Source: an uncultured Flavobacteriaceae bacterium (GTDB lineage Bacteria; Bacteroidota; Bacteroidia; Flavobacteriales; Flavobacteriaceae). From it: a stretch of DNA of 64,000 bases. The position numbers and the translations under genes are program-made. Position 1 is the first letter of the stretch. Every line of letters begins with the position of its first letter. The notes below the pieces were generated by a model. The model worked only from the letters and a program-made list of their open reading frames with translations. It did not search any database and was not told the origin of the DNA. The DNA is taken from the NCBI GenBank assembly GCA_947502975.1, contig CANNBV010000006.1:1-64000 (forward strand), written 5' to 3'. Shown here one piece after another: positions 6,153 through 21,116 of this stretch.

Positions 6153-8042
6153 ATGATAAAGATTAAAGTTCCAACTCTAGTGGCATGCTTTATATTTTGC
6201 GCTGGATTCTCTCAAACCAAAAATCTCAATCTCGAAAACGCAAAACTACAACCTATTGATTCCTGTTTATCTTGGATGCGTAAAAATGCATACACAGGAA
6301 AAGATTTAGATAATTTTCATTCTATTGCACTTCAAACTTTAAATCGCACTTTAAAAACTGATGATTCAAAACTTATCGCTGAAGTCCATGAAGAAATTGC
6401 CAACTGGCATGGATACAATGGTACATTTTCTCCAGATTCCATAGTGCATCATTCCGAAAAAGCTTTGGAAAACTACATCAAAATAGATGATAAAAAGAAA
6501 ATTGCTGGCACTTACAGAACATTAGCTATAGATTATATGAATGTACGTGAGCTGAACAAAGCCCAAGACGTCCTCTTCAAAGCTATTTCACTATATGAGG
6601 ATATGGAAAATGAAGCAGGAATAGGCAGTTCTTACAGAACACTTGGTGTGCTTCACGAAGTGATGGAAGAGCCCGAAAAAGCCATTGAGTATATTAACAA
6701 AGCTGTTCCTATTTTAGAAAAAACCAAAAACTATGCTTCTGTTGCTATTGCACAATTTAGTCTTATTAAAGCTTATGGTGAATTGGGTGAATTTGAAAAA
6801 GCTTACAAAGCTGCTGACTATTGTTTAGAAATTGTAAGGACAAAAGCATCTGAAGAAATTTTTGTTCCTGTACGTGCACATTCATACAGAGGCGAAGTGT
6901 ATGTGAAAGCCAAAGATTATGACAATGCTTTAAAAGATTTTATAAAAGCTTGGGAATTATGTTCAGCAAATATTGGAAAAGAGCGCTGTTCCACTTATAG
7001 AACAGAAATCGGACAAGTTTATTTACTTCAAAATGATTACAATAGAGCATTAGAGCATCTATCCGCAGGGGTTGAAGCCTATGAAGCTAAAGGACAAACT
7101 TCTATTGTAACCCAATATGAAGATCTAGCTAAATGTTATGAGAAACTAGGAGATTTTCAAAATGCGCTCCACTACCAAAACAAAGCACATGCAAACCAAA
7201 TAAATAATCTTGAAGGTAAAATTGAAAGCATTGAGGAAGAAACCATTGTAAAATACGAAACTGAAAAGAAAGACGAAGTTCTGGCATCTCAAGCCTCTTT
7301 ATTAGAGCAAAAAACAAAAACTCAAAACCTAATTATCGCCACGGCTGCTTTATTAGGCTTATTACTCCTATCCTTATTTTACTTTTTTAGTAAGAACAAA
7401 AAAGCTACAAAAATTATTCGTGCTAAAAATGCTGAAAACGAGTTGCTACTTAAAGAGATTCACCATCGTGTTAAAAATAATTTAGAAATGGTTAAAAGCC
7501 TTATTGCCCTTCAATCTTCAAAAATAGAAGACTCCGCTACCAAAGATGCTATGATAGCTAGTCAAAACAGGGTACAATCTATGGGGATCATTCACCAAAA
7601 ATTGTATCAAGGCGATAATTTAGGCAGTATAGAAATGAAGGATTATTTTCTAAACCTCAGTGAGGGTATTTTAGATACGTTTAATGCAGAAGACAAGGTA
7701 AAGATAAAATGTGTTATGGATACGCTAAATCTTGATGTAGACACTGCTGTTCCAATCGGGTTAATAGTTAATGAACTGCTTACTAATGCCTTAAAATATG
7801 CCTTTCCAGAAGATGAAAAAGGTGAGATTTCTATTAGTTTGGAAAAGTTTCAGGAAAATCATTTGAAACTAAAAGTGTCGGATAATGGTGTTGGAAAACA
7901 GAAAGATATTGCGCCAAAAGGCACAGGGTTTGGTTCTCAATTAGTCCACCTTTTAACCCAACAACTTAATGGTAAAATGACTGAGACATCAGAAAAAGGC
8001 ACATACGTAGAATTTGATTTTCTAATTGACACCGCAGCATAA
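6153..8042 (+). CDS. TPR-containing sensor histidine kinase, HisKA_2 family
   Basis: A 629-residue membrane kinase. An N-terminal signal-like helix (about 1-20, ending GFSQ) is followed by a periplasmic array of tetratricopeptide repeats (about 75-350; for example AGIGSSYRTLGVLHEVMEEPEKAIEYINKAV). A coiled-coil stretch, one transmembrane helix (about 388-407) and a cytosolic HisKA_2 dimerisation helix, LLKEIHHRVKNNLEMVKSLIALQS, come next. The phospho-accepting histidine is about 438. The HATPase domain shows the N box NELLTNALKYAF, the G box DNGVGK and GTGFGSQLV. Its last A is shared with the ATG of the next gene, a LytTR response regulator, so the two form one two-component system. The signal is unknown. 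Confidence 0.9.
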   Translation: MIKIKVPTLVACFIFCAGFSQTKNLNLENAKLQPIDSCLSWMRKNAYTGKDLDNFHSIALQTLNRTLKTDDSKLIAEVHEEIANWHGYNGTFSPDSIVHHSEKALENYIKIDDKKKIAGTYRTLAIDYMNVRELNKAQDVLFKAISLYEDMENEAGIGSSYRTLGVLHEVMEEPEKAIEYINKAVPILEKTKNYASVAIAQFSLIKAYGELGEFEKAYKAADYCLEIVRTKASEEIFVPVRAHSYRGEVYVKAKDYDNALKDFIKAWELCSANIGKERCSTYRTEIGQVYLLQNDYNRALEHLSAGVEAYEAKGQTSIVTQYEDLAKCYEKLGDFQNALHYQNKAHANQINNLEGKIESIEEETIVKYETEKKDEVLASQASLLEQKTKTQNLIIATAALLGLLLLSLFYFFSKNKKATKIIRAKNAENELLLKEIHHRVKNNLEMVKSLIALQSSKIEDSATKDAMIASQNRVQSMGIIHQKLYQGDNLGSIEMKDYFLNLSEGILDTFNAEDKVKIKCVMDTLNLDVDTAVPIGLIVNELLTNALKYAFPEDEKGEISISLEKFQENHLKLKVSDNGVGKQKDIAPKGTGFGSQLVHLLTQQLNGKMTETSEKGTYVEFDFLIDTAA

Positions 8043-8785
8043 TGAGTGACAAAATCAAGATATTAATTGTAGAAGACGAAATGGTTATTGCTGCAAATAT
8101 TTCGCTTCAACTGACTGAATTGGGGTATGAAGTAATTGGAATTGTGCCAAGAGGCGAAGACGCCTTAAAACAGATTGAAATAAATGCACCAGATATTTTA
8201 CTATTAGACATCAATTTAAAAGGTGCTTTGGATGGTATAGAAACTGCTAAGGCAATGCAAAAAACGCATAATATTCCCATCATTTATTTAACGGCAAATA
8301 TTGATGATGCAAATTTTAATAGAGCTAAAACTACGCATCCTTATGGTTTTATTGCTAAACCTTATAAAAAACTAGACTTACAACGTACTATAGAATTAAC
8401 CATAAGTCAAATAACTTCAGAAACTAAAACATCTTATCATACTGAACCAGAACATTCAGAATCTTACATATTAAGTGATAGCGTATTCGTTCGTCATAAT
8501 AATACAATGGTAAAAGTGAATATAAATGATATTCTATACATTGAAGCAGAACGCAATTATTGTCGCATATATTCAAAGAATAGAGAATACTTGTTGGTTA
8601 TAACTCTTAAGGATATGGATGGAAAGTTACCTTCTAAACACTTTCTTCGTGTACATCGATCATTTATTGTAAGCATTTCCAAAATCAATGAAGTTAGTAA
8701 TACGCATATCGTTATAGAGAAAAAAGCAATTCCTATAAGCAAATCATTGAAGGAAGAGCTGTTGAAACGTCTACAAACCATATAG
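8042..8785 (+). CDS. LytTR-type response regulator
   Basis: A 247-residue two-domain regulator. The receiver domain (1-125) has acidic pocket residues E11, D12 and E13, phospho-accepting D56 in ILLLDINL, a T in IIYLTAN and the lysine of FIAKPYKK. A linker is followed by a LytTR DNA-binding domain (about 140-245; DILYIEAERNYCRIYS and FLRVHRSFIVSISKI). It probably binds DNA direct repeats after phosphorylation by the preceding kinase. Stop and start overlap as TAATG, which implies translational coupling. Targets are not evident; the secreted protein downstream is a candidate by position only. Confidence 0.92.
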   Translation: MSDKIKILIVEDEMVIAANISLQLTELGYEVIGIVPRGEDALKQIEINAPDILLLDINLKGALDGIETAKAMQKTHNIPIIYLTANIDDANFNRAKTTHPYGFIAKPYKKLDLQRTIELTISQITSETKTSYHTEPEHSESYILSDSVFVRHNNTMVKVNINDILYIEAERNYCRIYSKNREYLLVITLKDMDGKLPSKHFLRVHRSFIVSISKINEVSNTHIVIEKKAIPISKSLKEELLKRLQTI

Positions 8786-9978: not shown

Positions 9979-11160
9979 ATGTCATCAATCAAATCTAAAA
10001 GAATTGAATCTATAGATATTTTAAGAGGTCTAGTAATGGTATTAATGGCTTTAGATCATACACGCGACTTCTTCCATTATGATGCCTTTTTCTCTAACCC
10101 TACAAATCTAGAAACGACAACACCATTTATATTCTTTACGAGGTTTATAACGCATTATTGTGCTCCTGTTTTTATTTTTTTGGCAGGAACCTCAGCATTC
10201 TTATATGGAAATAAAAAGAGTAAATCTAAACTATTTAAATTTTTAATTATTAGAGGAATTTGGCTTATTATTTTGTCCATTGTGGTTAATAATTTTGTTT
10301 GGAAATTTGATATTACCTATAGTTTTATTATTCTCCAAGTTATTTGGGCAATTGGCCTATGCATGATTCTACTTTCTTTTGCTATATATCTTCCCATGAG
10401 AGCATTGTTGCTAATAGGTATAATACTAGTAGCCGGCCATAATTTACTAGATGGAATTACTGCTGAAGGCACAAGTTTTATATCCATAGTTTGGTATATA
10501 CTCCACCAGCAACAATTTGGTATAGTAGGTAACCGAATGTTTTCTATTGCTTATCCTATTATTCCTTGGTTTGGATTAATAATTTTAGGCTATTGCTTTG
10601 GAAGGTTGTATATAAAAGATTTTAACCCTAAAAGAAGAAGAATGTATTTAATGTATTTAGGAATTGGTGCAATTGTATTATTCTTCCTTGTTAGAGGCAT
10701 AAATGTCTATGGAGATTTAGTACCATGGACAGTTCAAGATACACCAACCAAAACGGTACTGTCGTTCTTTAAAGTCACAAAATATCCACCATCACTAAGT
10801 TATCTCTTAATCACTATGGGGCCTGCACTTTTGTTTTTATGCGCTATAGAAAACATTAAAAATAGAATAACAGATTTCCTTCTTGTTTTTGGCCGCGTAC
10901 CACTATTTTATTACTTCCTACATATAATTCTGATACATATCTTAGCTATAATTGGTATGCTAATTTTTGGAGGAGATTGGAAAAACATGATTTTAACTAG
11001 TGATGTTTTTATGAATGCTAAACTCTTAGGTTACGGATATTCTTTATTTACAGTATATTTAGTTTGGATTTTAGTAATCGCCCTACTCTATTTTCCTTGT
11101 AAAAAATATATGATTTACAAGGCAAACAATAAAGATAAATGGTGGTTAAGCTACCTTTAG
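9979..11160 (+). CDS. Membrane acyltransferase-like protein (DUF1624/HGSNAT-like)
   Basis: A 393-residue polytopic membrane protein of about ten helices. The start RIESIDILRGLVMVLMALDHTRDFFHYDAF is the hallmark of the DUF1624 / heparan-alpha-glucosaminide N-acetyltransferase-like group. The family moves acyl groups, in known cases from acetyl-CoA, across the membrane onto amino sugars. The bacterial substrates are largely unknown. Other visible conserved parts are HYCAPVFIFLAGTSAFLYG and LFYYFLHIILIHILA. A start at ATG TCA TCA fits the signal-less N terminus. It stands alone on the plus strand. The family is confident, the substrate unknown. Confidence 0.8.
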   Translation: MSSIKSKRIESIDILRGLVMVLMALDHTRDFFHYDAFFSNPTNLETTTPFIFFTRFITHYCAPVFIFLAGTSAFLYGNKKSKSKLFKFLIIRGIWLIILSIVVNNFVWKFDITYSFIILQVIWAIGLCMILLSFAIYLPMRALLLIGIILVAGHNLLDGITAEGTSFISIVWYILHQQQFGIVGNRMFSIAYPIIPWFGLIILGYCFGRLYIKDFNPKRRRMYLMYLGIGAIVLFFLVRGINVYGDLVPWTVQDTPTKTVLSFFKVTKYPPSLSYLLITMGPALLFLCAIENIKNRITDFLLVFGRVPLFYYFLHIILIHILAIIGMLIFGGDWKNMILTSDVFMNAKLLGYGYSLFTVYLVWILVIALLYFPCKKYMIYKANNKDKWWLSYL

Positions 11161-13579: not shown

Positions 13580-13790
13580 ATGGTTTTTTGTTTCTAAATA
13601 TAGGGCTTATGAAACTTTCTGTATCCAAAAGTAATCTTAAAATTGTCTCTCATAAAGATATTTAGTCTCAAGGAGATATGACTGTAACAGAAAAATAATG
13701 ATTTACTCAGTAAATCTAGCTGCTATTAAAATTTTTGTATTATTTTTATTATGACTCAAAATATAGGTTAATTTAAGAGTTGTACTGCAT
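13580..13790. other. Left boundary of the cassette-like island
   Basis: The region is AT-rich and lies between the divergent M28 peptidase gene and the first gene of the island. It holds a small hairpin, GATTTAC-TCA-GTAAATC (13700-13716), and a TTTTTG at 13732-13737 that could be a -33 element, but no clear TAnnTTTG box and no integrase gene. Confidence 0.35.
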
Positions 13791-14294
13791 ATGGCTAACT
13801 TAATAATCATAGTAATTGTAATGTTATCTTGGGTAGTTTTCGGAAACCTTGGAATTCACCTCTATTTTAAAAAGAAAAGAGAAAATGTAATTGAGAATTT
13901 GAATGGAATAAACTACGAAATGATTAATAATATCGTGACTCATATCTCTAAAAAAAATAGATTTAGTATTTCCTATCAGAGAAAAAAATCAGATGTAGTA
14001 TTCTATGAAAATAATATTTTAATACTTCCTTATAACGCAACCAAACTATTCAAACAATATCAACCTTCATTGCAATACTCTTTTTCAAAAACAGAAAAAA
14101 AAATTGATGGAATAAGCACTACGATTGAAATTGAAAGTATTATGCAAAAAGAAAACAAAATAAAACTTTCGCATCAAGGAATAGGTGGAATTTTAAATGG
14201 AAAGATGACAACTGAATTGGAATTCACAGCAACTGGAATTAATTTATATGAAATTATAAACAACAATAAATACGCAATACAACAATGGTTATAA
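13791..14294 (+). CDS. Membrane-anchored protein of unknown function (cassette gene A)
   Basis: A 167-residue protein with one N-terminal transmembrane helix (about 3-24, LIIIVIVMLSWVVFGNLGIHLYF) followed by a basic segment (KKKRE) and a cytosolic domain rich in beta strands (SISYQRKKSDVVFYENNILILPYNATKLF). I do not recognise the family. The last residues (IQQWL and the stop) are encoded by the left end of the spacer repeat S1, so the ORF runs into the recombination-like site. It is the first of about ten plus-strand genes in the island. Confidence in coding is good; function is open. Confidence 0.6.
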   Translation: MANLIIIVIVMLSWVVFGNLGIHLYFKKKRENVIENLNGINYEMINNIVTHISKKNRFSISYQRKKSDVVFYENNILILPYNATKLFKQYQPSLQYSFSKTEKKIDGISTTIEIESIMQKENKIKLSHQGIGGILNGKMTTELEFTATGINLYEIINNNKYAIQQWL

Positions 14295-14407
14295 ATAATA
14301 GCCGGTTATCGCCTGCTTATAAAAATCCTTTCGAATTTTCAGTTTGGTGTGTACTTGAAAAGTTAAGTGCTCACACACGCAACTAATCATAGCTGAGACC
14401 GTTAAGC
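14278..14407 (+). repeat. Cassette spacer S1 (attC-like fold-back)
   Basis: The left end TACAACAATGGTTATAAATAATAGCC is nearly identical to spacer S7 (20755). The right end CGCAACTAATCATAGCTGAGACCGTTAAGC is nearly identical to S3 (15832). GTTAAGC matches the integron attC core GTTRRRY. An internal near-palindrome (AAAATCC..TTTCGAATTTT) lies between the ends. It separates genes A and B. Confidence 0.65.
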
Positions 14408-14431
14408 AACATTTGACAAAAACAGTAGAAA

Positions 14432-14671
14432 TTGAAATTTAAGATTGGACTTTCATTATTTTTTATCTTCGGGTTTTTCTTTTTCAGAATAATCGGACCA
14501 ATTATTACCAAAAAGTTGAAAGATTTTCATGTCAGAAATAATACCGGATTAGTTGAAAAAGCACCTGGTGTTTTTAAATTTTTTAATCTTTTTTTCAAGG
14601 CTTCTGCAATTTTCTGTTTAATTTATGTGGTAATGATTTGGACTGGATTTGTTACAATACCGAGTGAATAA
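14432..14671 (+). CDS. Small two-helix membrane protein (cassette gene B)
   Basis: A 79-residue protein starting at TTG. It has two hydrophobic helices (about 6-26, LSLFFIFGFFFFRIIGPII, and 50-72, LFFKASAIFCLIYVVMIWTGFV) separated by a basic loop. It matches no family I know. Its stop codon overlaps the ATG of the DUF2199 gene by one base, so the two are probably one two-gene cassette between spacers S1 and S2. No promoter is visible. The TTG start is required because no early ATG exists. Confidence 0.5.
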   Translation: MKFKIGLSLFFIFGFFFFRIIGPIITKKLKDFHVRNNTGLVEKAPGVFKFFNLFFKASAIFCLIYVVMIWTGFVTIPSE

Positions 14672-15207
14672 TGTTCTGGAAAAGAAAGAAAAATAAATCA
14701 ACGGAATTTAAATGTGCTGTATGTGGACAAATACATTCGGATTGGCCTGCATTAGCTTATAGCTCACCTGCGAATTACCACAACCTTTCTGAAAAGGAAA
14801 AATCGGAAATTGGTAAATTGGACACGGACTTTTGCGAAATTCATTACGCAGACCAAATTGACCGTTTTATAAGAGTAACGCTTACTCAAAAAGTAAAAGA
14901 CGCTTGCGAAACGTTGGAATACGGACTTTGGGTATCATTAAGCGAAAAAAGTTATTTAGACTATAAAGAAAATTACAATAATCCGAATCACGAAAATAAA
15001 TACTTTGGTTGGTTATGTAGCAATGTCCCTGAATATGGAGATACATCTTCAATTCCTTGCGATGTAATAACAAAAAGCGGAAATAACAGGCCAGAAATTT
15101 TTCCTCACGAAGATTTTGACCATCCATTAGTTCGGGATTATTACGACGGAATTTTAAAAACAGAAGCTGAAAATAGAATAAACGAAATGATAAAAAACCT
15201 TGGGTAA
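14671..15207 (+). CDS. DUF2199 domain protein (cassette gene C)
   Basis: A 178-residue cytosolic protein. FKCAVCGQIHSDWPALAYSSPANYHNLSEKEK, then DTDFCEIHYADQIDRFIR, and VSLSEKSYLDYKENY match DUF2199, whose N terminus carries a CxxC pair (C14, C17) that may bind zinc. The function of the family is unknown; in several genomes such proteins are encoded in immunity-gene or cassette settings. It is translationally coupled to the small membrane protein before it and is followed by spacer S2. The family call is solid. Confidence 0.75.
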   Translation: MFWKRKKNKSTEFKCAVCGQIHSDWPALAYSSPANYHNLSEKEKSEIGKLDTDFCEIHYADQIDRFIRVTLTQKVKDACETLEYGLWVSLSEKSYLDYKENYNNPNHENKYFGWLCSNVPEYGDTSSIPCDVITKSGNNRPEIFPHEDFDHPLVRDYYDGILKTEAENRINEMIKNLG

Positions 15208-15320
15208 CAACGTATATAACTTATTGCTTGGTTCTCGCTTACCTACAAAATCCTAGCGGATTTTCTATTCGGTTTGTATTTGATTAACCACGCAACAAAC
15301 CATATACAAACACGTTTGCA
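15205..15320 (+). repeat. Cassette spacer S2 (attC-like fold-back, best structure)
   Basis: The left arm AACGTATATAACTTATTGCTTGGTT (15209-15233) pairs imperfectly with the right arm AACCACGCAACAAACCATATACAAACACGTT (15286-15316). In between is the perfect inner palindrome AAAATCC-TAGC-GGATTTT (15247-15264). The core is ACGTTTGC. This nested architecture is what single-stranded attC sites look like. Confidence 0.65.
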
Positions 15321-15364
15321 GTAATTATGTGAACGCAATAAAACTGAAAAAATATATTTGCTAA

Positions 15365-15754
15365 ATGAATTTCTTCAAAAAAATATTCTCAATTAATACG
15401 AAGGGAAATTCTTTTCCAAGAAAAGAAAGATATCCTGAAAATTCAAAGGGCGATTTTTATGTAGAGAACCAAGTCTGTATAACTTGTGGTGCACCCGAAG
15501 CAGAAGCACCTGATTTAATTGAACATTCTAAACTTGAATATGGACATTGTTATTTTAAAAAACAACCTACAACAGCAGACGAATTAGACAGAGCAATTAG
15601 CGCAATGCAAGTTTCTTGTATCGCAGGAATCCGATATGGCGGAAAAGACCAAGCGATACTTAAAAGACTATCTGATTTGAATTTGCAAGCAGAATGTGAT
15701 TATACTTTGAAAGATGTACTTAAAGAATACAATGAAATTGATAAACAGAAATAA
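15365..15754 (+). CDS. Cysteine-motif protein of unknown function (cassette gene D)
   Basis: A 129-residue cytosolic protein. A basic N terminus is followed by CITCGAPEAEAPDLIEHSKLEYGHCYF, with a CxxC pair and a third cysteine that suggest metal or cluster binding. The helical tail LDRAISAMQVSCIAGIRYGGKDQAILKRL follows. I do not recognise a named family; CGAPEAEAPDL-type proteins occur as hypotheticals in Bacteroidota. It sits alone between spacers S2 and S3. The start ATG AAT TTC comes soon after AATATATTTG. The function is open. Confidence 0.55.
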   Translation: MNFFKKIFSINTKGNSFPRKERYPENSKGDFYVENQVCITCGAPEAEAPDLIEHSKLEYGHCYFKKQPTTADELDRAISAMQVSCIAGIRYGGKDQAILKRLSDLNLQAECDYTLKDVLKEYNEIDKQK

Positions 15755-15860
15755 AAAAAAACTACTGCCAAAAATGTATGAAAATAATGCTTAAATTTAA
15801 TCCTAAATCTAAACGTTAGTGAGTAGAAATCCGCAACTACTCATAGCCGAGACCGCTGGC
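15755..15860 (+). repeat. Cassette spacer S3
   Basis: The right end CGCAACTACTCATAGCCGAGACCGCTGGC (15832-15860) matches the S1 right end at nearly every base. A local hairpin AGTGAGTAG ... CTACTCAT lies just inside. The core is degenerate, GCTGGC rather than GTTRRRY. The left half is AT-rich and poorly conserved. Confidence 0.6.
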
Positions 15861-15884
15861 AAAAAGCTCAAAAAAGATTAACAA

Positions 15885-16136
15885 ATGAAGAACACAGACT
15901 TGAAAAGTAAAACGACTGAAAATTTAGAAGCAGAATTGAAAGGAATTAAGATTATCACTTGGGCATTAATTGGAATCTTAATACCATTATTTTCATTAAC
16001 AATTTATGGACTGATTACGAATAAAAGCTCTACTGATTTACCTTTATTGGTAGTTGCAATTTCTTGTAGCGCAATACTTCCATTACAATTTATTAATATG
16101 AAGAAAATCAAAACAGAATTGAATGCCAGAGGCTGA
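15885..16136 (+). CDS. Small two-helix membrane protein (cassette gene E)
   Basis: An 83-residue protein with a charged N terminus (KNTDLKSKTTENLEAELKGIK), two transmembrane helices (about 22-44, IITWALIGILIPLFSLTIYGLI, and 52-70) and a short basic tail. I do not recognise it. Fourteen bases separate it from the lipoprotein gene that follows, so they are likely co-transcribed and probably one cassette after spacer S3. Confidence 0.5.
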   Translation: MKNTDLKSKTTENLEAELKGIKIITWALIGILIPLFSLTIYGLITNKSSTDLPLLVVAISCSAILPLQFINMKKIKTELNARG

Positions 16137-16150
16137 ATTTGAAACCTGAA

Positions 16151-16846
16151 ATGAAAAAATTACAGAAAGTCATACTAATAATCGTTGGATTGATTTGTTT
16201 TTCCCAATGTAAAAGAAAAGTGAATATATCAAATGACATTGCTTATAGCGGAAAACCTAAGATTAAACTTGACAGTCTAAAGAATTTAGACAGTTTAGAT
16301 ATAGATTTCCAATTAAGAGGGAATTGCTACGCTTTTAGTAGTAAAAAAAATGCTAAAAAATCAAATGGAGAAGCACACTCAAAGAATATAGCGAAGCCCA
16401 ATAATGGAAAGTTTGAAAAAGGATTATTCGGACTTTATCTGAACGAAAATGAACTTCAAAAAATTTATGAGAAAAATATTGGTCATACTCTTTATTTAAT
16501 CAATACAACCTCCAAGAATATTGATTTATCTGCTCAAGACAGTCGAATTGATATAAAAACAGAAGTTAAATCTAAAGTTGGATTATGGACTGAAATTACT
16601 TATCTACCATCAAGTTGGTGTGGAAATAGTTACCACACAATTACTCTAGGTTCTGACGAATATTGGGAATTTGTCCAACCTATATTTAAGGGAAGTTTTA
16701 AAACAACGCTTCGCTATAAATTAGAACTAGAAGATAGTACAATTGTATCTAATGAAATAGTGGCTTTCATCAATCCAGAACAGTTAGACAAAGACAGAAA
16801 AGAAGGTCATAAACCGAACAACATAATGGATCCTTACAACGAATAA
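16151..16846 (+). CDS. Lipoprotein of unknown function (cassette gene F)
   Basis: A 231-residue lipoprotein. I choose ATG at 16151 rather than the TTG of the ORF track, because it gives a clean SpII signal: MKKLQKVILIIVGLICFSQC with a lipobox-like CFSQC. The mature part is beta-rich (NTTSKNIDLSAQDSRIDIKTEVKSKVGLWTEITYLPSSWCGNSYHTITLGSDEYWEF) and no catalytic motif is seen. It pairs with the small membrane protein upstream. It is surface- or periplasm-facing and the function is unknown. Confidence 0.6.
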   Translation: MKKLQKVILIIVGLICFSQCKRKVNISNDIAYSGKPKIKLDSLKNLDSLDIDFQLRGNCYAFSSKKNAKKSNGEAHSKNIAKPNNGKFEKGLFGLYLNENELQKIYEKNIGHTLYLINTTSKNIDLSAQDSRIDIKTEVKSKVGLWTEITYLPSSWCGNSYHTITLGSDEYWEFVQPIFKGSFKTTLRYKLELEDSTIVSNEIVAFINPEQLDKDRKEGHKPNNIMDPYNE

Positions 16847-16926
16847 AACTCAAAAACTTGGTAACATTATCTAATATTTTGCGTCTCTTTTGGCAATGAA
16901 AATTATATGTATTAATCAAAAAGAGA

Positions 16927-18003
16927 ATGAAAAAACGGATAATTGGAATTGATGTGGCAAGAGCTATAGCTATCATCGGAATGATAATAGTGAATTTTAA
17001 AGTCGTTTTTGGTAATACTGGATCCAATTGGGTAAAATCTGTTGCAAGTGTTTTCGATGGAAAAGCAGCGGCAACATTTGTTGTTATAGCTGGTATTGGA
17101 CTTGCTTTAATTACAAACTCTGCTATTGATCAAAAAGACAAACTCAAATTAAAAATTGCTCGAAATAGAATTATCAAAAGAGCTATATTTCTGTTCATTA
17201 TTGGAATTTCATATATAGCAATTTGGCCAGCAGATATTCTACATTTTTATGGTATTTATATGGCAATAACAATCTTGCTGTTGTCTAGTAAAGAAAAAAC
17301 TATTTTAATTTCAGCTATCTCTTTTATTATAGCCTTTCCAATACTAATGGCATTTTGGGGTTACGAAACGGGTTGGGATTTTGATACATTAAGCTATCAA
17401 GAATTTTGGTCAATAAAAGGGTTTATTAGAAATCTATTTTATAATGGTTTTCACCCAGTAATTCCTTGGACCGCTTTTATGCTATTTGGTTATTGGTTTG
17501 GTAAACAGGATTTACATAACGAAAAATTTATAAAAAAAACATTTTGGGTTAGTACAATCATTTTTATTGCTATTCAAGTACTTTCATATTTGTCTATTTC
17601 ATTTTTATCAGAAGGAAACCAAGATTCTGCAAAAGCATTATCCGAAATTCTTGGAACCAATCCTATGCCACCATTACCAATTTATATGTGCAATGGTATT
17701 GCAATTTCTTTCGCCATAATTTCTGCTTGTATAATGATTTCCAAACGATTTGAGAATAGTTTTATAATTGATGCTTTAAACAAAACTGGACAATTAGCTT
17801 TGACTTTCTACGTAGCGCATGTTATTATCGGAATGGGAATAGTAGAAGCAATAAATCCTTCTGAAATGGGAAAATACTCTATTGAATTTTCTGTGATTTA
17901 TGCGTTAGGGTTTAGTCTATTATGCATTGTATTTGCAGTAATCTGGAGAAAATATAAAAAAACAGGACCATTAGAGTGGCTTATGCGAAAAATAACAGAT
18001 TGA
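16927..18003 (+). CDS. DUF418-type membrane protein (cassette gene G)
   Basis: A 358-residue polytopic membrane protein. RIIGIDVARAIAIIGMIIVNFKVVFG at the N terminus and the C-terminal LNKTGQLALTFYVAHVIIGMGIVEAI fit the DUF418/YeiB-like acyltransferase superfamily that also contains the HGSNAT-like proteins. The function is unknown in most members, probably transfer of acyl groups at the membrane. Eighty bases separate it from gene F; there the pair TCTCTTTT/AAAAGAGA flanks the start codon. It is followed directly by spacer S4. Confidence 0.7.
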   Translation: MKKRIIGIDVARAIAIIGMIIVNFKVVFGNTGSNWVKSVASVFDGKAAATFVVIAGIGLALITNSAIDQKDKLKLKIARNRIIKRAIFLFIIGISYIAIWPADILHFYGIYMAITILLLSSKEKTILISAISFIIAFPILMAFWGYETGWDFDTLSYQEFWSIKGFIRNLFYNGFHPVIPWTAFMLFGYWFGKQDLHNEKFIKKTFWVSTIIFIAIQVLSYLSISFLSEGNQDSAKALSEILGTNPMPPLPIYMCNGIAISFAIISACIMISKRFENSFIIDALNKTGQLALTFYVAHVIIGMGIVEAINPSEMGKYSIEFSVIYALGFSLLCIVFAVIWRKYKKTGPLEWLMRKITD

Positions 18004-18010
18004 AAAAACT

Positions 18011-18134
18011 AGTTACAAAAAGGTGTATAGTTCATTGCTCGGGTTTATGTTAATCGGAAAATTCGAAGGATTTACCTTAGGTTCGGTTCCTTTTGCTAAA
18101 TTAGTTGTGAAGCAATCGATACTAACCGTTCTAA
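18011..18134 (+). repeat. Cassette spacer S4
   Basis: The left end AGTTACAAAAAGGTGTATAGTTCATTGCTCGGGTTTATG resembles S2 (TAACAACGTATATAACTTATTGCTTGGTT). The right end TGAAGCAATCGATACTAACCGTT (18108-18130) pairs with the left as an imperfect inverted repeat (TTCATTGCT against AGCAATC). An open frame with a GTG start crosses the whole element. Confidence 0.55.
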
Positions 18135-18148
18135 AATATCTGAGAACA

Positions 18149-18709
18149 TTGAGTTTAAAAGAGAAAATATTTGAGAAATATGATGAATTTAGTTTACTTG
18201 AAAACCAAACTGAAAAGGACATTTTACGCTCTGAAATCAAAACAATACTAGCGGAATATTCTGAAATGGATTCCAATTGTTATCATCTGCTTGGACTTGT
18301 TGATTATGAATCAGACGACTGGAAAGAAAATATTGAAGCCTCTATTGGAAATTTTAAAAAGGCAATTGAATTAGATAAGGATAATTTTTTAGCTCAATTA
18401 TATTTAGCACACTGTTACCACGATTTGAATAGATTGGAATTGGCTTTGGAAAACTATAACAAAGTTGACAGAGAAAAACTAAAAGTGTTTCAAGTATGGA
18501 GATACACAAAACTGATTGAACAAATTGGATATTGCCAATATAAGCTTGGAAATAAACAAATTGGAGAGCAACACTTTGAGGAAGTTTTGGAATGGTATAA
18601 AAAACTTCCAGAAATCGACCGAGCTGTTCCATCTGAATTAATTGAATGTTTACCAAAAAATCATCGGATTGTAACCGAAATGAAAAAGATAGAAAGTTAT
18701 TTAGAATAA
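18149..18709 (+). CDS. TPR-like protein (cassette gene H)
   Basis: A helical protein with tetratricopeptide-like units (SIGNFKKAIELDKDNFLAQLYLAHCYHDLNRLELALENYNKVD, then YCQYKLGNKQIGEQHFEEVLEWYKKLP). The ORF track starts at GTG 18023, but those first 42 codons lie inside spacer S4 and do not look like protein. I prefer the in-frame TTG at 18149 (LSLKEKIFEKYDEFSLLE), giving 186 residues. It has no signal peptide. It presumably mediates protein contacts; the partner is unknown. The start needs testing. Confidence 0.6.
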   Translation: MSLKEKIFEKYDEFSLLENQTEKDILRSEIKTILAEYSEMDSNCYHLLGLVDYESDDWKENIEASIGNFKKAIELDKDNFLAQLYLAHCYHDLNRLELALENYNKVDREKLKVFQVWRYTKLIEQIGYCQYKLGNKQIGEQHFEEVLEWYKKLPEIDRAVPSELIECLPKNHRIVTEMKKIESYLE

Positions 18710-18716
18710 AAAAACG

Positions 18717-18848
18717 TTTTACAACAATAACCATAATTCATTGTGATTTTATGCCATACCAAAATAAAAGTATAAATCAAACGGATGGATTTTGGTAGAA
18801 TAATCCTGCGGATGATTCCGCATCGAAATCATAACCAAACCGTTAGGC
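18717..18848 (+). repeat. Cassette spacer S5 with GTTAGGC core
   Basis: The left end TTTTACAACAATAACCATAATTCATTGTG resembles the S1/S7 left ends. The interior holds CCTGCGGATGATTCCGCATCG hairpins. The right end is ATAACCAAACCGTTAGGC, whose GTTAGGC fits GTTRRRY exactly. A further 60 bases of leader precede the CPBP gene. Confidence 0.6.
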
Positions 18849-18908
18849 ACAACGTAACAGTACTATGACCGCGTCGTCTTCCTAGAACAAACTAATCTTA
18901 AAAGCATA

Positions 18909-19763
18909 ATGCCTAAAAATTTATCGGAACATAGAGAAACTTGGACAACGATTTTTATTTTTATCACAATTGTTACTATTATTAGTTCGCTATTTCATTT
19001 TGCAATAGTTAATCTATATCCTTCGCGAATATATATTGGAGGTCTAATGTGGTGTCCAGCTGTAGCCGCCATAGTTACGCTAAAACTAAAAAAACGACCT
19101 ATTTCTTCACTAAATTGGAATTGGGGAAATTGGAAGTATATTCGATTTTCATATTTTATTCCTGCTTTATATGGCGTAATCACTTATATACTAATCTGGA
19201 TTTTTGGATTTGGAAGTTTAACAAATAGAGAAGCTATTACGGATTGGGCAAAAGATCTTGGTTTGATTGGTATAGGAACATTAAATACTACATCAATTAT
19301 AGTCATAGCTATTATCTTATTAGGAACTATAGAAGTAATACGATCTGCAGCAACAACTTTAGGAGAGGAAATTGGGTGGCGAGGTTTTTTTATTTATGAA
19401 TTAAGAAAAGTGCTTTCCTTTACTGGTGTTTCCCTTTTTAGCGGGATTGTTTGGGCATCTTGGCACTGGCCATTAATTGTATACTACGGAGATAATGTAA
19501 TATTGGAATTAACAACATTTTATGTAGTTATTATAGCAATGTCATTTATTATGACATACTATACTTTTAAATCTAAAAGTCTATGGCCCGCAGTAATATT
19601 TCACGCAGTAAGTAATGTGTATATTCAAAAAATATTGCCTGAATTAACAATTAAGAATGAGGGAACGGAACATTGGCTTGGTGAAAACGGAATTATGTTT
19701 GCAATTGTTACGTGTATTTTTGGATTTTACTTTTGGAGAAAAGCAATTAAAGAAAAATTATAA
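18909..19763 (+). CDS. CPBP family intramembrane glutamic endopeptidase (cassette gene I)
   Basis: A 284-residue polytopic protein of the CAAX-protease/bacteriocin-processing (CPBP, Abi) family. Motif 1, LGEEIGWRGFFIYEL, supplies the catalytic EE and R near residue 155. Motif 2, WASWHWPL, supplies the first histidine. HAVSN near the C terminus is motif 4. Bacterial members cleave membrane substrates and in some cases give immunity to peptide bacteriocins. It is flanked by spacers S5 and S6. Whether it relates to the bacteriocin-like operon 37 kb away cannot be told from sequence. Confidence 0.85.
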   Translation: MPKNLSEHRETWTTIFIFITIVTIISSLFHFAIVNLYPSRIYIGGLMWCPAVAAIVTLKLKKRPISSLNWNWGNWKYIRFSYFIPALYGVITYILIWIFGFGSLTNREAITDWAKDLGLIGIGTLNTTSIIVIAIILLGTIEVIRSAATTLGEEIGWRGFFIYELRKVLSFTGVSLFSGIVWASWHWPLIVYYGDNVILELTTFYVVIIAMSFIMTYYTFKSKSLWPAVIFHAVSNVYIQKILPELTIKNEGTEHWLGENGIMFAIVTCIFGFYFWRKAIKEKL

Positions 19764-20014
19764 GTAAAAAACAGCGCCCAATGCCGTATTAATTAATACT
19801 ACAGCTGGAAATCACAGCTAATCTTCCCTGATTAATCATCCATGAAGTGTTGAATGTAATAGCTTCTCGACATATTTTAAGCTATCTTTGGTTAGTCGAC
19901 TCAAAACTACACACATCAGCGTGTATAATGAATGAGGTGTAATTATGACACTCGTGAGGCTCGCCTCGCTTCACCATACAAAGTGGACGTTGTGCTTAAT
20001 GTAAAATTTCATCA
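19764..20014 (+). repeat. Cassette spacer S6 (19918-19995 is the conserved part)
   Basis: The gap of 251 bases ends in a fold-back. The left end is AGCGTGTATAATGAATGAGGTG. A GAGGC-TC-GCCTC hairpin lies in the middle, and the right end is TTCACCATACAAAGTGGACGTTGTGC. TGTATAATG... and ...CCATACAAAGT are imperfectly complementary. The core GTTGTGC differs from GTTRRRY at one base. The first 150 bases of the gap hold only short repeats (TTAATTAATAC, CAGCTGGAAATCACAGCT). Confidence 0.5.
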
Positions 20015-20755
20015 ATGAAAGACAAATTAGGACTAATATTTATTCATGGTGCCGGATTGGGAAATCATATTTGGAATGACCTCCATGACCTCCAACAGAA
20101 TTTAAACTATTTGTACTTAATGATTGAATTCCCAAATAGAAATGCAGGCGACAACGCAAATTCCAAATTAAGTTTCGAAGATTATGTTACAAAAGCAATT
20201 TCGGATACGAAAAATTTTGAAAAGCAAAAAGTAATTATTGTTTCTCACTCAATTGGGGGGCTTATTGGACTAAGAATCGCAGAACATTTAAAAGACAAAG
20301 TAGTTGGATTTGTTGGAATTGGTTCTGCAATCCCAAAAAACGGAAAATCATTTATTTCTTGTCTACCTTTTCCCCAAAAGCTAATAATGCCATTGATCAT
20401 GAAATTGGCAGGTACCAAACCACCAAAATCGGCTATTGAAAATGGATTATGTAATGATTTAAAGCCATCACAATCGAAAAAGATTGTCGAAAAATTTACA
20501 GCTGAATCAAGAAGCCTGTACACAGATAATTCTAAAACAGTAATTCCCAACGTAAACAAACTATATATAGAATTGACTAACGATAGAGAATTCCCCTTAC
20601 CTGTTCAAAGGAAAATGGCAGAAAATCTGAATTGTAAAAACATTGTATCACTTGACAGTGGTCATTTACCAATGTTAAGTGTTCCAGAAAAACTTACCGG
20701 AATTTTGAATGCATTTATTGATAGTTGTATGGAACAGGATTTAGAAAATATCTAA
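20015..20755 (+). CDS. Alpha/beta hydrolase (cassette gene J)
   Basis: A 246-residue cytosolic alpha/beta-hydrolase. LIFIHGAGLGNHIWND carries the HG oxyanion motif. The nucleophile elbow is VSHSIGG with S79, where serine replaces the usual first glycine of GxSxG. An acidic residue lies in ELTNDREFPL (about 190) and the catalytic histidine in DSGHLPML (about 216). Substrate is unknown; esterase or lipase activity is plausible. The stop codon abuts the left end of spacer S7. This is the last gene of the island. Confidence 0.8.
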   Translation: MKDKLGLIFIHGAGLGNHIWNDLHDLQQNLNYLYLMIEFPNRNAGDNANSKLSFEDYVTKAISDTKNFEKQKVIIVSHSIGGLIGLRIAEHLKDKVVGFVGIGSAIPKNGKSFISCLPFPQKLIMPLIMKLAGTKPPKSAIENGLCNDLKPSQSKKIVEKFTAESRSLYTDNSKTVIPNVNKLYIELTNDREFPLPVQRKMAENLNCKNIVSLDSGHLPMLSVPEKLTGILNAFIDSCMEQDLENI

Positions 20756-20830
20756 TACAACAATGGCTATAAGTAATAGCCTGTAACGCGTGAAATCACT
20801 TTTCGTAAGCGCTCTCAAAAATAAAACATA
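20755..20830 (+). repeat. Cassette spacer S7 (left half recognisable)
   Basis: TACAACAATGGCTATAAGTAATAGCC (20755-20781) matches the left end of S1 at 24 of 26 bases. A matching right end with a GTT core is not evident, and a different dispersed repeat begins near 20935. The array may have been truncated here. Confidence 0.55.
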
Positions 20831-20934
20831 TTTTAAATTTAAACACTTGAGCTAGCAGATAGGTGCGTTAAGGATAGAAGCGGCATCCTTTTTATGGTTA
20901 AAACATATGTATTTTGATATTTGAGCACAAAGTA

Positions 20935-21025
20935 ATGAGATTGCTTCGTCGCCCTCTCCTCGCAATGACACCATAAAAAGATACAGCGGATAGCCTGACC
21001 ACGCCACAGGCGTGGTAACGCCCAA
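20935..21025 (-). repeat. Dispersed repeat copy R1 (GGGCGTTACC family)
   Basis: Read on the minus strand this is GGGCGTTACCACGCC-TGTG-GCGTGG, then TCAGGCTATCCGCTGTATC and GTGTCATTGCGAGGAGAGGGCGACGAAGCAATCTC. It is clearly more GC-rich than its surroundings. Blocks GGGCGTTACC and GTCNGGCT recur at 23932 and 38639. The two overlapping ORFs of the track here are not genes. Confidence 0.55.
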
Positions 21026-21030
21026 AAACA

Positions 21031-21057
21031 AAAAATCCCACACAAGGCGGGATTTTT
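21031..21057. terminator. Bidirectional terminator between the island and glyA
   Basis: AAAAATCCC (21031-21039) and GGGATTTTT (21049-21057) form a 9-bp stem with a 9-base loop, with A and T runs on either side. It can serve both convergent units. Confidence 0.75.
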
Positions 21058-21080
21058 AAATTTTATAGCTGCTTAAACTT

Positions 21081-21116
21081 ACTTCGACTTCGCTCAGTAA
21101 GGAGTTCAGCATGACA
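21081..21116 (-). repeat. TGTCATGCTGAA element after glyA
   Basis: On the minus strand TGTCATGCTGAACTCCTTACTGAGCGAAGTCGAAGTAAG begins eight bases after the glyA stop. Its first 12 bases equal those of the element after sucC at 3411-3422. The rest is a CTTACT-related fold-back. Confidence 0.45.

Follow-up and report, generated by a model that had tools for sequence, protein, structure and literature searches.

Two near-identical spacer ends in a Flavobacteriaceae genome point to an integron-like gene cassette system in Bacteroidota

Two intergenic spacers in the genome of a member of the Flavobacteriaceae end in almost the same sequence, each just before an unrelated gene. To what kind of element does this end belong, and why does it recur between unrelated genes? 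We examined the 64,000-nt stretch of DNA carrying both copies (hereafter, the window), the remainder of its genome, and other genomes of the family and phylum. Very probably, the motif closes the right side of an attC-like recombination site. Such sites would form part of an integron-like system of Bacteroidota, represented in the window by an island that, judging from sequence comparisons, resembles a CALIN (IntegronFinder's term for a cluster of two or more attC sites that lacks an integrase).

The repeated motif and the site family

The near identity of the right ends of the two spacers, described in an earlier note on this DNA, was confirmed at positions 14378-14407 and 15832-15860 of the forward strand. 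The core, CGCAACTA(A/C)TCATAGC(T/C)GAGACCG, occupies 14378-14401 and 15832-15855 in the 64,000-nt window and is followed by TTAAGC at the first copy and by CTGGCA at the second. Allowing up to three mismatches, we found two matches in the window versus none in 100 dinucleotide-preserving shuffles; the genome-wide mismatch search that the note had recommended, run at the same tolerance, yielded 12 copies and none of the reversed pattern. With its flanks, the motif forms the right end of a ~125-bp element (ACAACAATGGCTATAAGTAATTGC ... GCAACTACTCATAGCCGAGACCGTTRGCA) located at, or just past, the stop codon of the upstream gene. Its extent had been underestimated: the motif first noted amounts to the right-hand third of an element, and the first element, S1, is a complete site of ~140 bp. 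The idea that it is a functional end sequence held and could be made more precise, since it corresponds to the putative L'-R' end of an attC-like site. The unrelated gene behind each copy is likewise explained: every site closes one cassette and adjoins the next one.

A covariance model (R1) built from 25 sites retrieved 75 attC-like sites, many of them clustered, in the window's genome at an E value of 0.01. It also had matches in 106 of the 120 genomes sampled from the family (one per genus) and, phylum-wide, in 42 of 158 genomes. Given these 75 sites and 106 genomes, the chance local duplication that the earlier note envisaged for a motif absent elsewhere does not apply. One related cluster of this genome (L011) contains ~15 small genes, all on one strand, and behind every one of them stands a site of this kind, with varied arms. 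Comparison of the sites showed strong covariation in the L arms, with 94.6% of cells paired versus 22-40% when one side was slid. RNAalifold applied to a MAFFT alignment predicted zero pairs because the loops misalign, so hand-named pairs were counted in its place; a simple arm detector, noisy relative to Markov controls, was replaced by the covariance model.

The sites are multi-copy and dispersed and have an inverted-repeat character, which could also suggest a transposon or MITE family with its terminal repeats, or a chance local duplication. However, the units are arranged head to tail on one strand, with the longest ORF on the strand of the site in 200 cassettes and on the opposite strand in one, the motif is widespread, and the end sequences vary between cassettes yet stay complementary (see below). 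We therefore regard an origin as transposon repeats or as a duplication as extremely improbable.

A cassette island in the window

The island (13645-21103, without assigned strand) was delimited by blastn synteny as a stretch that three congeners lack at this position, their peptidase gene and glyA being 250-1325 bp apart. All the cassettes and sites described here lie on the forward strand. The first cassette, C1 (13780-14401), starts with TTGTACTGCAT, contains a gene at 13791-14294 and has G14401 as its last base; its start is complementary to the R'' of S1 at 7 of 9 nt, versus 1-2 of 9 for wrong pairings. The site S1 (14272-14412; R1 score 99.8 bits, E = 1.9e-18), with a likely crossover at 14401^14402, includes the first motif copy (14378-14407), made of the L' arm, the spacer GAGACC and the G^TT core. 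C2 (14402-15314) has two ORFs, 14432-14671 and 14671-15207, the latter coding for a DUF2199 protein (Pfam PF09965, E = 2.3e-51), and its ends show partial complementarity, at 5 of 9 nt as against 1-2 for wrong pairings. S2 (15197-15325; 93.7 bits, E = 3.6e-17; predicted crossover 15314^15315) is situated between S1 and S3; its arm sequence is different, the right arm having diverged. C3 (15315-15855; gene 15365-15754), whose ends match at 7 of 9 nt (1-2 when wrongly paired), is closed by S3 (about 15761-15866), a decayed site identified by the model (23.3 bits, E = 0.013) and by end complementarity, in which the left AAC has become AAA and the right GTT has become GCT, with a probable crossover at 15855^15856. 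The second motif copy (15832-15860) corresponds to the right arm and core of S3.

The following composite stretch, C4 (15856-18128), carries ORFs at 15885-16136, 16139-16846 and 16927-18003, the last one encoding a DUF418/HGSNAT acyltransferase; its cassette limits are partly lost, with no site match from 15866 to 18008 in the R1 search. It is followed by S4 (18008-18159; 51 bits, E = 2.3e-8; GTT core at 18128-18130) and by the weak site S5 (18714-18853; 28.1 bits, E = 0.0013), which ends in CCGTTAGGC and has a putative crossover at 18842^18843. A degenerate candidate, S6 (about 19906 to 20000; 20.3 bits, E = 0.054), comes after a CPBP/Rce1-like gene (18909-19763; Pfam PF02517), and only the left half of S7 (AACAATGGCTATAAGTAATAGCC, 20757-20785) was recognized, by comparison with the consensus, after an alpha/beta-hydrolase gene (20015-20755). 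S3, S5, S6 and S7 are weak or decayed. Most cassette genes lack a Pfam family; those that could be named include genes for DUF2199, a CPBP protease, an acyltransferase, cyclases and one ParE-like toxin. An Rfam search of the window detected no family at the sites, its sole match being Flavo-1 at 20850-21004; this RNA (RF01705, 52.2 bits) lies at the right edge of the island.

Cassette ends, strand and movement

In 163 units, the 9 nt after GTT and the 9 nt before the AAC of the next site were complementary at a mean of 7.33 of 9 positions, compared with 3.38 (sd 0.11) when pairings were shuffled, and the two ends of one and the same site reached only the background level (3.39). The end sequence differs for each cassette while complementarity is retained. 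Since the matched ends belong to the same gene unit, they would meet only in a circular unit. The circular form gave a better bottom-strand fold in 66 of 70 sites and surpassed swapped ends in 65 of 70; sites folded as they stand in the array had weak z-scores, because stem formation depends on the start of the cassette itself, which the circular form provides.

Canonical attC sites use their bottom strand (PMC2727003). In the L arms of the sites studied here, top-strand mismatches comprised 510 A.C versus 30 G.T, so that mismatches on the bottom strand are mostly G.T wobbles, a polarity that would be expected of a folded single-strand substrate. The right spacer was 2-3 nt longer than the left one in 236 of 247 sites. 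In the sites of L011-L086, a top-strand A.C combination is also kept between R'' position -8 (A in 212 of 216) and R' position +8 (C in 151 of 163), equivalent to a G.T wobble on the bottom strand. Complementarity of cassette ends also disclosed an array in Rufibacter (L098, 9068-17068; 10 chained hits, none in shuffles) whose sites score poorly with R1, indicating that site types vary among families.

Comparison of genomes provided evidence for cassette limits and mobility. Genome G101 and Winogradskyella ursingii share a 904-bp cassette without a single difference; the identity is bounded by G^TT on both sides, and the 60-bp upstream flanks are unrelated (32% alike). Inside arrays, 99.8% identity was seen between copies of 557-567 bp whose neighbours differ. 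These comparisons indicate that cassettes move singly and, together with the edges of attI, place the probable crossover at G^TT. Homologous cassette genes with different attC arms were also observed (L081 11483-12480, L102 12535-13501 and, on the reverse strand, L071 13236-14196), the break falling inside the left arm.

Array heads

In other genomes of the family, the arrays are headed by a tyrosine recombinase gene, mostly of 370-403 residues. In 23 of 29 heads, 20 of which (L067-L086) had been picked for the closeness of integrase and site, a G^TT found 30-161 nt past the integrase stop codon matched the end of the first cassette at no fewer than 10 of 12 nt. Unlike in integrons, this attI-like G^TT is often preceded, at 4-7 bp, by a perfect palindrome of 11-12 bp, and the integrase gene is usually oriented toward the array, L081 and L115 being divergent. 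When loci were retrieved solely by their integrase, 43 of the 45 sites lay downstream on the same strand and the other two were in divergent layout. Clade integrases of Mesonia (L122) and Saprospirales (L105) had no detectable array nearby, phage and plasmid searches returned distant integrases only, and the one Bacteroidota plasmid examined, from Persicobacter (L169), had no array. A downstream scan of two IntI carriers detected no chained cassettes, as expected given their usually divergent layout, and none were found in non-integron controls. In one congener (G305; L189-L193), the last 43 integrase codons and the palindromic attI occur at six places, with a different cassette at each from G^TT onward; these repeats are dispersed, truncated integron heads.

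An alternative interpretation is that the elements act at gene ends as REP-like palindromes, attenuators or terminators and take no part in recombination. Being palindromic, intergenic and located at or just past stop codons, the sites do look like such elements. However, complementarity is found between the ends of a gene unit and is at background level within a single site, and by its polarity the wobble favours a fold in the strand that would pair with the transcript of the genes. Entire units have moved, with G^TT at their edges, and the arrays begin at an integrase plus attI. The boundary and movement data refute this interpretation unless they are due to chance, and we give it almost no credence.

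The integron-like reading supposes that a cassette is excised as a circle and that a hairpin forms from the bottom strand of its site; this hairpin would comprise a 9-12 bp R stem made from the two cassette ends, a 2-3 nt bulge and a long L stem. A dedicated tyrosine recombinase, most likely the clade integrase, would then join the folded site at G^TT either to the attI-like site next to its own gene or to another site. Weighing against this reading are the weak or decayed state of several sites in the window, the poorer match of the C2 ends and the lost limits of C4, the lack of the integrase in the window's genome, the selection of 20 heads for closeness, and the clade members with no array detected nearby.

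An integrase lacking the IntI-specific domain

The six catalytic positions (R235, K260, H324, R327, H350 and Y359 in the L084 protein) are invariant in the array integrases, which share these residues and the core fold with XerA, XerC and XerD. By sequence and predicted fold, their core is nearest to XerA and IntI: NF040815 (XerA/integron) was the top NCBIfam match for nine of ten of them (~205-230 bits), with scores far under the XerC and XerD cut-offs, and the top structural hits of the predicted fold were XerA (5hxy, 4a8e) and, beside them, IntI (2a3v). To our knowledge, chromosome-dimer recombinases (XerA/XerC/XerD) do not head cassette arrays. The ~100 additional N-terminal residues had no Pfam match; in the L087 protein, a small alpha/beta domain is predicted with good confidence for residues 1-75 (8001-8225), also without a Pfam match.

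These arrays might be ordinary IntI-type integron cassettes, or plain CALINs, merely missed by standard tools. As in integrons, including sedentary chromosomal ones such as that of Vibrio cholerae (IntI/attI/attC), there are an integrase with attI beside it and an array of one-gene cassettes, a G^TT crossover (here deduced from sequence edges), R and L stems with an unpaired spacer, R''/R' complementarity within the cassette, and bottom-strand hairpins that fold more strongly and appear, by comparison, more constrained. Furthermore, the array integrases share with IntI a PLD-like C-terminal motif and score 192-213 bits on TIGR02249. Nevertheless, these scores are under the cut-off of 265, and a search of 149 family genomes with this model, which did expose recombinases, found none over it. 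In addition, 64 residues separate the catalytic lysine motif from HxxRH versus 106-107 in six IntI sequences, and the alignment with the IntI structure 2a3v has its gap where the IntI-specific domain sits; comparison thus indicates that the array integrases lack this ~42-residue domain (I2). In the tree, array integrases and IntI form separate groups (100/100 each), with archaeal/CPR recombinases nearest to IntI. The sites also differ from the integron consensus RYYYAAC/GTTRRRY: the Bacteroidota R box consists of a conserved GTTR plus free but covarying bases (9-12 nt), and GTTRRRY is matched by just 23 of 252 R' boxes, and RYYYAAC in 21 of 252 cases. An IntI-type reading is already weakened by these differences, and we consider it very unlikely.

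The I2 domain has been called a defining characteristic of integron integrases and is required by the integrase search of IntegronFinder (PMC9668308), and a broad survey reported a complete integron in Bacteroidetes proper only in Salinibacter (PMC9024848). We found no description of the present system in the open-access literature. We lean towards a second integron lineage in Bacteroidota, derived either from a pre-I2 ancestor that recombined folded cassette sites or by parallel evolution from a Xer-like recombinase. If so, integron activity would not need the domain held to define integrons and, should the arrays recombine, a major environmental phylum would commonly be shaped by an overlooked process of gene-cassette capture. 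Escudero et al. 2016 (PMC4792948) described the joint emergence of I2 and attC as a chicken-and-egg paradox; an integrase that serves attC-like sites without I2 would make this question directly testable.

Status of the window island

The array integrase has a strong match in nine of ten congeners (one interrupted by stops). The 36 contigs of the window's genome contained no platform integrase, only XerC/D-like recombinases and two phage-type integrases; a gap between contigs could possibly hide one. Since the integrase is missing, array activity in this genome probably belongs to the past or occurs in trans, and the island may owe its formation to an integrase that was later lost or that acts in trans. 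With ~75 sites and no platform integrase, the genome resembles CALIN carriers, from which it differs in that its sites are of the Bacteroidota type. On its sequence features, the array in the window is a CALIN-like island of putatively mobile gene cassettes that has no integrase. Finally, the acyltransferase-like membrane protein genes at 9979-11160 and 16927-18003, the second of them inside the cassette island, share a short similar stretch.
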